Below, one piece after another: positions 8,366 to 35,229 of a stretch of 64,000 nucleotides of DNA. The notes under the pieces are model-generated. The model was given only the letters and a program-made list of their open reading frames with translations. It was not told the origin of the DNA and searched no databases. The stretch covers positions 62,001-126,000 of the forward strand of contig JAFLVD010000001.1 in NCBI GenBank assembly GCA_022508485.1, given 5' to 3'. Source of the DNA: Clostridiales bacterium. GTDB lineage: Bacteria; Bacillota; Clostridia; Christensenellales; Pumilibacteraceae. Every line of letters begins with the position of its first letter. Within the stretch, counting starts at the first letter, position 1. A program made the position numbers and the translations under genes.

Positions 8366-9058
8366 ATGTTCGACGAATTTATTAAATCCGAACGGACCAC
8401 GCTCTCAAAACGCAAAAGAATAATGCGCTTTGACAATAAGCCGCGCATAACCGGGCGAATGAGCGTTGTGGGCGTAAAGGAATCTCAAGGCCCGGTCGCA
8501 AGGTATTTTCACCGTTGCGAGGTAGACGATAAAATGGGCGAAAAAACCTTCGAGCGCGCGGAAATCCGCATGTTCGATACTGCGGTGCGAGGCGCGCTTA
8601 GGGACGCGCTTTTAACGGCGGAGGACGTGGATTTGTTTATTTCGGGCGATCTTCTCAATCAGATGACGACTTCGAGCTACGCCGCGCGCGATATAGGCGT
8701 GCCGCACGTCGGCGTGTACGGCGCGTGTTCGACCATGACCGAAAGTCTTATGCTTTCCGCGTCGATGGTAAACGCCGGGTATTTTAATAATGTGCTTTGC
8801 GCGGTGAGCAGCCACTTTGCTACGGCGGAACGCCAGTTCAGATATCCGCTCGAATACGGCTGTCAACGTCCGCCTTACGCGCAGTGGACGGTAACGGGTT
8901 CCGCGGCGTCTGTCGTGTCCCAAAACAGCGAAAAGACGGCGCGTTTCCCCAAAATCGTGTGCGCCATTCCCGGTATTATTACCGACTTCGGCACCAACGA
9001 TCTTAATAATATGGGGGCGGCAATGGCGCCCGATAATGTTATAATACCACCATATTAA
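8366..9058 (+). CDS. spoVAD: Stage V sporulation protein AD, N-terminal fragment (gene interrupted after codon ...MAP, followed by element-encoded DNVIIPPY*)
   Basis: Thiolase-like SpoVAD (VDLFISGDLLNQMTTSSYAARDIGVPHVGVYGACSTMTESL..SSHFATAERQFRYPLEYG) breaks off at NNMGAAMAP, within the conserved MAPAAxDT region. Confidence 0.95.
   Translation: MFDEFIKSERTTLSKRKRIMRFDNKPRITGRMSVVGVKESQGPVARYFHRCEVDDKMGEKTFERAEIRMFDTAVRGALRDALLTAEDVDLFISGDLLNQMTTSSYAARDIGVPHVGVYGACSTMTESLMLSASMVNAGYFNNVLCAVSSHFATAERQFRYPLEYGCQRPPYAQWTVTGSAASVVSQNSEKTARFPKIVCAIPGIITDFGTNDLNNMGAAMAPDNVIIPPY
9009..9053 (+). other. attL: left junction of the spoVAD intervening element
   Basis: spoVAD ATG GCG CCC G joined to element DNA; core CCCG 9029-9032 matches 33777-33780; CACCAT arm 9048-9053 is an inverted copy of ATGGTG 33754-33759. 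Confidence 0.85.
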
Positions 9059-9148
9059 GGCGAACAACGACGCTTTGGCACAAAAATTCAGTCAAAAAGG
9101 GGGTGAGTACGCTTTTTCGCCTTATTTTTAGGTTTAAATTATACACTT

Positions 9149-9442
9149 ATGAAAAACTCTCCGCCAAAAAGAAAAAACACCGCCGATATTTTACGCGAAG
9201 CAAATTACGATTGTGGGAATAAAAAGTACGTTCGGCGCGATTATACGGACGGCACGGTCGATTTAATTACATATAACGTGAATAAAAAATATTGGCTTTT
9301 TGAAACGTTCGTAAATAAAAAAATACTCGGCATGGAATATGACTTCGAGAATTGTTTGTCAAGCCCGGCGTTTTGCGGCTTGTATTTTGTTTATGCGACG
9401 ATAATTTATGACCGAAGAAGGGCACCTAAAAGTAAAGCTTAG
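9149..9442 (+). CDS. Hypothetical protein at the left end of the element
   Basis: 97-aa ORF, not recognised, weak RBS; would be the first ORF downstream of the predicted circle-junction promoter. Confidence 0.35.
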   Translation: MKNSPPKRKNTADILREANYDCGNKKYVRRDYTDGTVDLITYNVNKKYWLFETFVNKKILGMEYDFENCLSSPAFCGLYFVYATIIYDRRRAPKSKA

Positions 9443-31524: not shown

Positions 31525-31556
31525 AATTGCTCTCGATACGTCGAGGGCAATTTTTT
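31525..31556 (+). terminator. Rho-independent terminator after galM
   Basis: AAATTGCTCTCGA-tacg-TCGAGGGCAATTTTTT. Confidence 0.85.
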
Positions 31557-31590
31557 GTTTAATTTTTTTAATAATGGTAAAAATTTCGGT

Positions 31591-31833
31591 ATGGATACCT
31601 TGCCGCTTAAAGAAGTAAGTCCCGATTTGTTAAGCGAATTAAGCAGTATAGAAATCGATTGCTATTTATCCGTGCCGGAACGTGTAAAAACGTTTTTAAT
31701 GGCGATAAAATCGCCGTACCTATTTAGCGTTAAAGGAAGAGCGGTAAAAGTTGTTTTTGACGGTTTTTCTGTCAGATCGCTCGAGGACGGGCTTATTTCC
31801 GCGCTGAAAAATATCACAAAAGTATACGATTAA
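31591..31833 (+). CDS. Small protein preceding the recombinase; candidate recombination accessory/directionality factor
   Basis: 80-aa ORF MDTLPLKEVSPDLL...VPERVKTFLMAIKSPYLFSVKGRAVKVVFDGFSVRSLEDGLISALKNITKVYD; resembles small proteins found next to serine recombinases in Firmicutes elements. Confidence 0.55.
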   Translation: MDTLPLKEVSPDLLSELSSIEIDCYLSVPERVKTFLMAIKSPYLFSVKGRAVKVVFDGFSVRSLEDGLISALKNITKVYD

Positions 31834-31846
31834 CCTCTTTTTGCTA

Positions 31847-31875
31847 TTGCATTCGTCGGAAAAATAATGTATAAT
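31847..31875 (+). promoter_or_regulatory. Predicted sigma-A promoter of the serine recombinase
   Basis: TTGCAT 31847-31852, 17-nt spacer, TATAAT 31870-31875; RBS AAGGAAAGG before ATG 31922. Confidence 0.65.
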
Positions 31876-31921
31876 AATTTCGTGCCAAAGCGTCATTATT
31901 CGCCGAAAGGAAAGGTGAATT

Positions 31922-33592
31922 ATGGCAAGACAAAGTAAATATTCCATTTCTCCGCCGCCTGCCGAAAAAATTTGGAAGGCCGGTCTTTACATTAGAATTT
32001 CCCGTGAGGACGGCGACGGTGCGGAAAGCGAGAGCGTTTCGTCTCAGCGCGCTATAACCGAGCAGTTTGTTTCGACTCACGACGATATTATTATAGCCGA
32101 TTATTATATCGACGACGGTTACACGGGTACCGATTTCGACCGTCCCGATTTTAAACGCATGTTCGACGACGTTACATCTAAGCGCATTAACTGCGTTATA
32201 GTAAAGGATTTGTCGCGTTTCGGGCGTAACTATGTAGAAGCCGGGAAGTACCTCGAGGTGCTTTTTCCCATGCTTAACGTTCGGTTTATCGCCGTAAACG
32301 ACATGATAGACAGCATACTCAACCCGTCGTCAATGAACACGATGATGGTTCCCATTAAAAATATCATGAACGACGAGTATTGTAGGGATATTTCCACAAA
32401 GGTTAAAACCTCGCTCGATATCAGACGGAAAAACGGAATGTTTATAGGCTCGTTCGCTTCCTACGGCTACAAAAAGGATCCCTCTGACCGCCACAAGCTT
32501 ATTATAGACGAGGAAGCCGCGCGTACCGTCAGATATATTTTCGATAGGTTTATAAGCGGATACAGTATAATAGGGATTGCACGCGAGCTTAACGAAAGAG
32601 GTGTTCTTAATCCGTCCGAATACAAAAAGAGCTTAGGTCTTAACTATAAACACGCGCATAAAGCCCAAAATTGCGCTCTGTGGTGCGATACGACCGTTCG
32701 TCGTATTCTTAACAGCGAAATATATATCGGACATCTCGTGCAAAAGAAAACCGAAGTCGTAAGCTACAAGGTGCACGTTTGTAAGACGGTCGAAAAAAGT
32801 AAAAACATTAAAGTGGAAAATACTCACGAGCCGATTATACCCGTCGAGGTTTTTTATAAGGCACAAGAGCTTTTATCGCGCGACACTCGATCTACGGCAA
32901 AAGACGGCAGGCTGTCCGTTTTCGCCGGGTTTATTAAGTGCGCCGACTGCGGTCGCGCCATGCAAAAAAGAACGGTCAAAGGCCCTAATAAAAAGTACGA
33001 TTACTACGTTTGTTCCACTTTCCGAAAACTCGATAAAAACAAGTGTACGAAACACGCGATTCGCGCCGACGTTTTGGAAGAAACGGTGCTTGCCGTACTC
33101 AATAAATACATTCAAATAGCAATCGACTTCGATAGGGTAATACGCGAAATCGAAAAATACGACTCATTTAGCGGAAAGTCCGCACGGCTGTTATCGGTTA
33201 TAGAAACTAAAAAGGGCGAGATAGAGTCGGCTAAAAAAATACTGCAAGACATTTATCCCGATTATAAATCGGGACTTCTCAGTCTCGAGAGCTATTTGGC
33301 GCTAAAAGATAGGTACGAAAAAACTATTTCCGATTGCGAAAAGGTAATATCCGCTCTAAATTCGGAAGAGAAAAAAACGACGGCAAATAAAAACAACGAG
33401 TTTATCTCGAAATTTAAAAGTCGGCGTTTTCTTTCGGAACTGACGCGAGAGGTGCTTGTAGAGCTGCTGGATAATATCTATATACACGAAGGCGGCGCGG
33501 TAGAGCTTCACCTTAAATGCCGCGACGAGTTTCTATCCGCAACAGAGTTTTTATATGCAAATAAAGAAAAGGCGACAGAAAACTGCATTTAG
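31922..33592 (+). CDS. Large serine recombinase (SpoIVCA/TnpX-like)
   Basis: AGLYIRISREDGDGAESESVSSQ catalytic motif, VIVKDLSRFGRNYVEAGKYLE, recombinase domain, zinc ribbon (CADCGRAMQKR...YYVCSTFRKLDKNKC), C-terminal coiled coil; 556 aa. Confidence 0.96.
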   Translation: MARQSKYSISPPPAEKIWKAGLYIRISREDGDGAESESVSSQRAITEQFVSTHDDIIIADYYIDDGYTGTDFDRPDFKRMFDDVTSKRINCVIVKDLSRFGRNYVEAGKYLEVLFPMLNVRFIAVNDMIDSILNPSSMNTMMVPIKNIMNDEYCRDISTKVKTSLDIRRKNGMFIGSFASYGYKKDPSDRHKLIIDEEAARTVRYIFDRFISGYSIIGIARELNERGVLNPSEYKKSLGLNYKHAHKAQNCALWCDTTVRRILNSEIYIGHLVQKKTEVVSYKVHVCKTVEKSKNIKVENTHEPIIPVEVFYKAQELLSRDTRSTAKDGRLSVFAGFIKCADCGRAMQKRTVKGPNKKYDYYVCSTFRKLDKNKCTKHAIRADVLEETVLAVLNKYIQIAIDFDRVIREIEKYDSFSGKSARLLSVIETKKGEIESAKKILQDIYPDYKSGLLSLESYLALKDRYEKTISDCEKVISALNSEEKKTTANKNNEFISKFKSRRFLSELTREVLVELLDNIYIHEGGAVELHLKCRDEFLSATEFLYANKEKATENCI

Positions 33593-33753
33593 CGGTCGTC
33601 GACTGATTTATATTATATGTTATTATTTTTGTCGGAAAAACGATAGGGGTTTCAGTTGTGCCCAAAAAACACAATCATATTTACCCCGATTTACATATTT
33701 AAAAATGGATCGAAAAGGACGGAAAAATATACAATAAAAAATAAAACTTTTTT

Positions 33754-33800
33754 ATGGTGTTTTATTGACAATAGCCCCCGCCGCAATGGATACCATGTTT
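33754..33800 (+). other. attR: right junction of the spoVAD intervening element
   Basis: ATGGTG arm 33754-33759, core GCCCCCG 33774-33780, then spoVAD sequence GCCGCAATGGATACC. Confidence 0.85.
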
Positions 33801-34181
33801 ACGCTTCTTACCGAGTCCGGGTATAACGAAAACGACTTTGATATGATTTGCACAGGCGATCTCGGCAAGCTCGGGTCGGATATTTTACGCGATTTAATGC
33901 GTCGACGCGGAATAAAGCTCGGTCAAAACTATATCGACTGCGGCAATATGATGTACAGCGACAAGCAGAATTGCTATCAAGGCGGAAGCGGCTGCGCGTG
34001 TTCCGCCACGGTTTTTAATTCCTATATTATGGAAAAATTGATTTCGGGCGAATTCAGGCGCGTTGCGTATATGGCAACGGGTGCGCTTATGAGCACTCAA
34101 AGCTGTTACCAGGGCGAAACTATACCGGGTATCTGCCACTGCGTTGTTGTGGAAAGCGCATTCGAGGGGGAGGATAAATAA
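33765..34181 (+). CDS. spoVAD: Stage V sporulation protein AD, C-terminal fragment (true SpoVAD sequence from 33780)
   Basis: APAAMDTMFTLLTESGYNENDFDMICTGDLGKLGSDIL...CYQGGSGCACSATV...ATGALMSTQSCYQGETIPGICHCVVVE is the C-terminal third of SpoVAD; spoVAE follows. Confidence 0.95.
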   Translation: MTIAPAAMDTMFTLLTESGYNENDFDMICTGDLGKLGSDILRDLMRRRGIKLGQNYIDCGNMMYSDKQNCYQGGSGCACSATVFNSYIMEKLISGEFRRVAYMATGALMSTQSCYQGETIPGICHCVVVESAFEGEDK

Positions 34182-34641: not shown

Positions 34642-34674
34642 GATTCGGTATATAAAGCGTTAGTGGTGCGAGGT

Positions 34675-35229
34675 ATGCGCGACAATTACAATTGGTACGT
34701 ATTGTACACCAAAACAAATACAGAATCGCGTGTAATATCCGATTTTTCCGAGGCGTTTAACAACCGAAAACTCGATTATTCAATCGAGCTGTTTTGTCCC
34801 GAGTCGGAGATGTATTACAGAAAAAGCAAGGACGCAACCGGCGGCACGTACAAAAAGCGTCCGCTTTTTCCAAATTACGTTTTTATCGAAACGGACATGC
34901 CCGAAAACGATTTTATAAAAGAATTTTCCGATTTTATTTATAAGTCGAACGACATAATTCGTCTGCTTAAATACGGCACCGGCAGAATAGCCATCGCCGC
35001 CGAAGAGCGAATGAGGTTTGAATATCTGTTTAAAGGCAAGCGCTGTCTCGACCGCTCGGTGGGGATTATAGTAGGGGATAAGATTACGATTACGTTAGGA
35101 CCGCTTAAAGGCTTTGAGGGATTGATTTCGCATATAAACAGACATAACCGCACGGCAACTATTCAGGTAGAAATGTTCGGCGGCGTGATAGAAGCGAAGG
35201 TCGCGCTTGAGATTGTGGAAAAAAGATAA
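34675..35229 (+). CDS. NusG-family paralog (LoaP-like antitermination protein)
   Basis: NGN domain (NWYVLYTKTNTESRVISDF...KKRPLFPNYVFIET) and KOW motif (VGDKITITLGPLKGFEGLISHINRHNRTATIQVEMFG). Confidence 0.85.
   Translation: MRDNYNWYVLYTKTNTESRVISDFSEAFNNRKLDYSIELFCPESEMYYRKSKDATGGTYKKRPLFPNYVFIETDMPENDFIKEFSDFIYKSNDIIRLLKYGTGRIAIAAEERMRFEYLFKGKRCLDRSVGIIVGDKITITLGPLKGFEGLISHINRHNRTATIQVEMFGGVIEAKVALEIVEKR

Follow-up and report, generated by a model that had tools for sequence, protein, structure and literature searches.

The window, that is, the whole 64,000-nucleotide stretch of DNA analysed here, spans a spoIIAB-sigF-spoVAC-spoVAD-spoVAE region in which spoVAD is split by a 24.7-kb element whose cargo is a galactan and galactose utilisation set. 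The 5' part of the interrupted host gene (positions 8366-9031, forward strand, as are all features below; Pfam SpoVAD, profile positions 2-205) ends in the left copy of a shared crossover core, CCC (attL, 9029-9031), and the right core CCC with the spoVAD 3' part (33777-34181) covers profile positions 200-329 of the same family. Joining the flanks restores the reading frame across ..NNMGAAMAP and AAMDTMFTLL.., which corresponds to the intact spoVAD product of congeners, and a survey of the genus found spoVAD intact in 16 members and split in 3, this genome included. Together with the SpoVAD matches of both halves, this agreement and the 16 intact genes give the element ends independent support. 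The right end of the element encodes a DUF6870 protein (31555-31833; Pfam PF21757) just 5' of a large serine recombinase of 556 amino acids (31922-33592; Pfam Resolvase, Recombinase and Zn_ribbon_recom). In most relatives, too, the DUF6870 gene immediately precedes the recombinase gene, and its product is a candidate accessory or recombination directionality factor. With a serine recombinase element inside a sporulation gene and flanks that restore the frame, the locus has the structure of a sporulation-gene intervening element. Just 3' of it, between spoVAE and yunB, lies a LoaP-like NusG-family antiterminator gene (34663-35229) that scores slightly under the curated cut-off.

The initial annotation had claimed that excision would assemble an exact sigma-A consensus promoter at attP, absent from both integrated junctions, and re-reading the sequence confirmed this. 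When the ends are joined over the shared C-run, the -35 hexamer TTGACA of the right end (33765-33770, within the right recombinase half-site TATGGTG... at 33753-33782) comes to stand before the -10 hexamer TATAAT of the left end (9040-9045), giving TTGACA-N17-TATAAT with the 17-bp spacer ATAGCCCCCGATAATGT and a TG at -15/-14. In the integrated form the two halves were both located at the element ends, 24.7 kb apart, and the -35 position reads GCGGCA at attL and the -10 position GGATAC at attR; the extended -10 (TGn-TATAAT) is unbroken at attL and could give weak promoter activity there. Among 20,000 shuffled junctions, 12 of 12 hexamer matches occurred in none and 11 of 12 in 46. At the level of sequence, the predicted circle-junction consensus promoter is strongly supported. 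The composite attP pattern (TTGACA, a spaced -10 and an arm) was not found in the assemblies of 17 carrier genomes, and a search of IMG/VR for circular copies returned 10 pattern matches, none with attP arms, and no relative of the recombinase. Relatives of the recombinase in the phage collection were also considered as circles, but were set aside because the top three records, at 37-40% identity, are linear scaffolds.

The -35 and -10 thus come from opposite ends and are complete only in the circle, as in a promoter of the Tn4451 kind, to which the junction had been likened. Conservation among relatives strongly supports a promoter found only in the circle, and the comparison is apt in its logic, which links a joint promoter with a recombinase; the means differ, as the recombinase is not transcribed directly: the promoter faces the left end, with the recombinase 22.9 kb beyond. 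The orientation toward the left end had been correctly annotated, whereas the output then proposed, namely the open reading frame at 9149-9442 and RNA antisense to the AraC gene, is probably not the main one, since the first-made RNA (from 9052) is complementary to the recombinase leader at 31882-31904. This complementarity of its first-transcribed stretch suggests that the circle promoter most likely exerts its effect by way of an RNA that reaches the recombinase mRNA in trans.

The predicted trigger RNA (9052-9129) runs from a +1 placed by its spacing from the -10 to a weak terminator-like hairpin followed by a T-run. Positions 9059-9085 emerged from a repeat search as the complement of 31878-31904, a stretch just 5' of the recombinase ATG; about 25 nt near the start of the trigger (9059-9081 for the part complementary to the mRNA leader) would pair with the mRNA, beginning at its predicted +1 and extending into a start-masking hairpin along its 5' arm. 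The recombinase gene has its own promoter (TTGCAT-N17-TATAAT, 31847-31875), with the predicted +1 lying 6 nt after the -10, a spacing kept in all relatives. Its leader (31882-31921) is predicted to fold into a toehold and then a stem-loop masking the Shine-Dalgarno sequence (SD) and the AUG, the stem extending into the recombinase coding sequence. Across the relatives, leaders are 34-57 nt long and are predicted to have a largely unpaired 5' stretch followed by a stem-loop, with the AUG in the stem and the SD located either in the loop or in the 3' arm. Leader fold z-scores against dinucleotide shuffles were -3.0 or lower in 11 of 16, and a start-masking hairpin 3' of a mostly single-stranded toehold was predicted throughout, weakly so in G250 (leader z -0.2). 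No match above the gathering score was found in Rfam 15 at trigger or leader; weak off-site matches occurred near the leader and nothing at the trigger. Tandem recombinase gene pairs were observed in elements L043, L047, L049, L053, L099 and L101, with a hairpin leader on the first gene only.

The relatives carry the same trigger/leader complementarity in other letters: from element to element, most toehold positions are occupied by different Watson-Crick pairs. Sequence change that preserves the match in this way is better accounted for by base pairing than by a site bound by a protein. Because close relatives are not independent, the 16 elements compared were sorted into eight clades, and duplexes were computed between each trigger from its predicted +1 and each leader from the predicted recombinase +1. 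Mean duplex energy was -37 kcal/mol with the own leader versus -17 kcal/mol with leaders of other clades, and the own leader ranked first for 15 of the 16 trigger RNAs, the exception being G250, whose own duplex came second. Energies with cross-clade ranks were chosen as the measure; gap-free counts at fixed positions part own from foreign leaders less sharply since the toeholds share GUGUU, and the hairpin arms alone separate own and cross pairs poorly in some clades because similar SD/AUG letters are masked in all. Over 12,788 windows of the 64 kb, both strands included, the trigger site was the best match after the leader's own complement. The predicted helix spans the mRNA from +1 to position 19-30 and stops short of the SD. 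The cognate trigger is complementary to both the toehold and the 5' arm, as in a toehold switch. When the paired stretch was taken out of the folding, the predicted probability of an unpaired AUG rose in 15 of 16 leaders (from 0.05 to 0.61 in the window), G077 being the one in which the AUG is not predicted to open, and predicted SD accessibility rose in about two thirds only. The split promoter and the predicted pairing of trigger and leader are well supported by these comparisons of sequence.

These observations lead us to propose, with a probability of roughly 0.78, that the recombinase of this element is governed by an RNA switch responsive to excision, a natural toehold switch as judged from sequence and predicted folds. 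While the element is integrated, the promoter halves would be kept apart and the recombinase mRNA shut by its leader hairpin, whose stem would enclose the AUG and whose loop or 3' arm would contain the SD. Excision would join the right-end TTGACA to the left-end TATAAT, and a short trigger RNA would be made from near 9052, pair with the 5' toehold of the mRNA, invade the 5' arm of the hairpin and free the start site. The recombinase could then be made and the circle could re-integrate, which would split the promoter again and reset the switch. Transcription, an activating sign and re-integration as the purpose are parts of this model that we infer. Activation is the likeliest sign because pairing removes the masking strand and leaves the SD and AUG free, and re-integration of the circle is the likeliest use by analogy with Tn4451 and with integrative and conjugative elements (ICEs) whose excised state favours the integrase. 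Complementarity would fit repression equally well, and since the duplex covers the 5' end of the mRNA, the circle-made RNA might instead be an antisense repressor, comparable to RNA-OUT of IS10, that turns the recombinase off once the element has left and thereby keeps the restored spoVAD whole. This opposite sign appears unlikely: the helix stops short of both SD and AUG and takes away the very strand that masks them, and a conserved leader hairpin would be needless.

Conservation of the junction bears both on the proposed switch and on whether the promoter match has a function at all. The attPs of relatives were rebuilt by locating both spoVAD parts in each genome, which gave 17 complete pairs from MAG assemblies that may contain assembly errors, several element end pairs being drawn from different contigs of one MAG. 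Altogether, 18 of 19 rebuilt attPs, spanning the two sporulation genes spoVAD and spoIVB, have an exact TTGACA, a spacer of exactly 17 bp and a -10 that departs from TATAAT at no more than one base (11/12 or 12/12), and the recombinases compared share 41-100% identity with that of the window and fall into several deep branches. For spoVAD, the exact TTGACA and 17 bp are present in 16 of 17 attPs, with a -10 of TATAAT (12), TATTAT (3) or TATACT (1); the spoVAD element of G088 has neither hexamer. It is conceivable that the hexamers and repeats are only binding sites for the recombinase or a regulator, as the half-sites are inverted (TATGGTG...), both hexamers lie inside them and the adjoining TG/CA is symmetric. 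However, in all 16 promoter-bearing spoVAD elements the -35 arm has T, G and A where the mirror arm has A, A and a variable base, and the outer part of the hexamer is kept in the -10 arm only, again in 16 of 16. Since the hexamer positions differ between the arms alike in every case, the symmetry of the recombinase site fails to explain them, and a by-product of a symmetric site was rejected on this ground. The promoter-less G088 further shows that the hexamers are dispensable for the site, and the paired sequences vary widely between elements while matching within each, unlike a protein site, which makes a promoter match without function highly improbable.

Homologues of the 97-aa open reading frame at 9149-9442 occur at the left ends of six further elements (L055, L056, L062, L063, L065 and L066), and this family of small proteins, about 90-125 aa in length, shares the motif RRDYxDG; the window copy has no match in Pfam, NCBIfam or PHROG. 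In the trigger RNAs, a conserved SD-like tract, GGAGG(T), follows the pairing stretch at a distance of about 20 nt (9098-9103 in the window) and is present even where the terminator comes at once and the reading frame is absent. That the circle promoter mainly serves this protein, for example as a directionality or maintenance factor, with leader pairing secondary, is scarcely credible despite the homologues and the SD-like tract before the frame, as a terminator-like hairpin follows the tract in about half of the elements and many elements lack the frame yet keep the complementarity. In G095 (L134), the first gene past the trigger resembles a ParA-type ATPase by eye, which suggests a plasmid-like circle.

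Two genomes with intact spoVAD, G388 and G436, encode recombinases of about 43% identity with the same leader type, and were kept outside model building, though their leaders had already been seen. When the G388 genome was scanned for sequence complementary to its leader, a single further site turned up on a separate contig, where TATAAT is followed by GGCGATAGATAAAGGCACTTTTAACACA, a purine tract and a terminator, directly after ..GMSGSPIVQNGKLVGAVTHV, which we take to be a SpoIVB motif. The opposite element end has TTGACA before ..THVFINDPTRGYG. In G436, a search with the interrupted protein of G388 revealed a gene interrupted at the equivalent position, with the interruption covering about 65.7 kb, together with 27 nt of trigger/leader pairing and TTGACA-N17-TATAAT. 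The trigger predicted from the G388 leader was recovered along with its promoter and an interrupted spoIVB, and G436 shows the same arrangement. Both spoVAD and spoIVB are forespore genes, by homology with B. subtilis. In G081 (L068/L045, L147/L170), the element is inverted in spoVAD, with the recombinase end on the spoVAD 5' side; a 15-bp trigger match is retained at the other end, and no attP promoter is present at the corresponding position. In the single MAG G075 (L141, L148, L038, L039), the spoVAD 3' part occurs twice, along with two close recombinases, and one right end (..GTGTGACTTTTGCTTGACAATGGC) is of another type in which TTGACA is still present. The explanation may be two elements, or else two strains that share the bin. 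Counted against the switch are the partial rise in SD accessibility, the G077 AUG, G250, G088 and G081, as well as the conserved GGAGG tract of the trigger RNAs, for which the switch gives no account.

Several known systems resemble parts of this arrangement. Lyras and Rood reportedly described in 2000 that the joint promoter of Tn4451/Tn4453, made by excision, transcribes tnpX directly. There, as proposed here, excision joins the ends into a promoter favouring a large serine recombinase, but tnpX is read directly, whereas the far-end recombinase of the present element would be reached by a trans-acting RNA at the level of translation. DsrA-rpoS and RNAIII-hla are activating small RNAs of the anti-antisense type, and RNA-OUT of IS10, encoded opposite its target, represses the transposase; all resemble the present case in that a trans or antisense RNA controls translation at an mRNA leader, and to our knowledge none is switched on by excision. 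ICEKp1, ICEclc and ICEEc1 switch integrase promoters between the integrated and excised states, and the authors of that work suggest that a segment of junction RNA could base-pair with the stem-loop of a leader (PMC13023037). Integrase expression thus follows the state of the element, as proposed here, but those integrases are tyrosine enzymes, the whole promoter lies in one end, and the segment is in the same transcript with no separate trigger. Serine-recombinase elements also split sporulation genes and can restore them in skin/sigK, SPbeta/spsM, vfbin/spoVFB, gin/gerE and yin/yabG (PMC5025042, PMC4191935, PMC5595907, PMC10747680), with targets other than spoVAD or spoIVB; we found no such RNA switch reported for these five. 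In the synthetic toehold switch of Green et al. (2014), as described in PMC7247568, a 5' toehold precedes a hairpin holding the SD and AUG, and a trigger invades its 5' arm. The leader layout predicted here from folds matches that description, the difference being that this one would be natural and its trigger gated by DNA rearrangement. Junction promoters, activating small RNAs and sporulation-gene intervening elements are each known, and the RNA actuator is the unusual part. In the open literature, which mostly leaves subscription papers outside, we found no paper combining the three and none on spoVAD or spoIVB intervening elements.

In every promoter-bearing element the trigger lies on the coding strand of the interrupted gene, just past the break, which makes it possible that the host transcript of that gene carries the trigger and calls for excision. 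More tentatively than the switch itself, and with the odds somewhat against it, one RNA may read both states. When integrated, the trigger would be the tail of the interrupted gene's transcript, so that the host's attempted use of the gene would unlock the recombinase that repairs it; when excised, it would come from the assembled promoter, and a circle in the spore would re-integrate after germination instead of being lost. If this is true, the device would be a toehold switch of natural origin, gated by rearrangement of DNA. If the switch itself is real, it bears on how an element in a forespore gene escapes loss when that gene must be repaired, a mobile element would sense its presence in the chromosome or its absence from it by an RNA whose promoter needs excision, nature would be using the layout that engineers devised as the toehold switch, and about 18 co-evolved trigger/switch pairs would be tied to serine recombinases.
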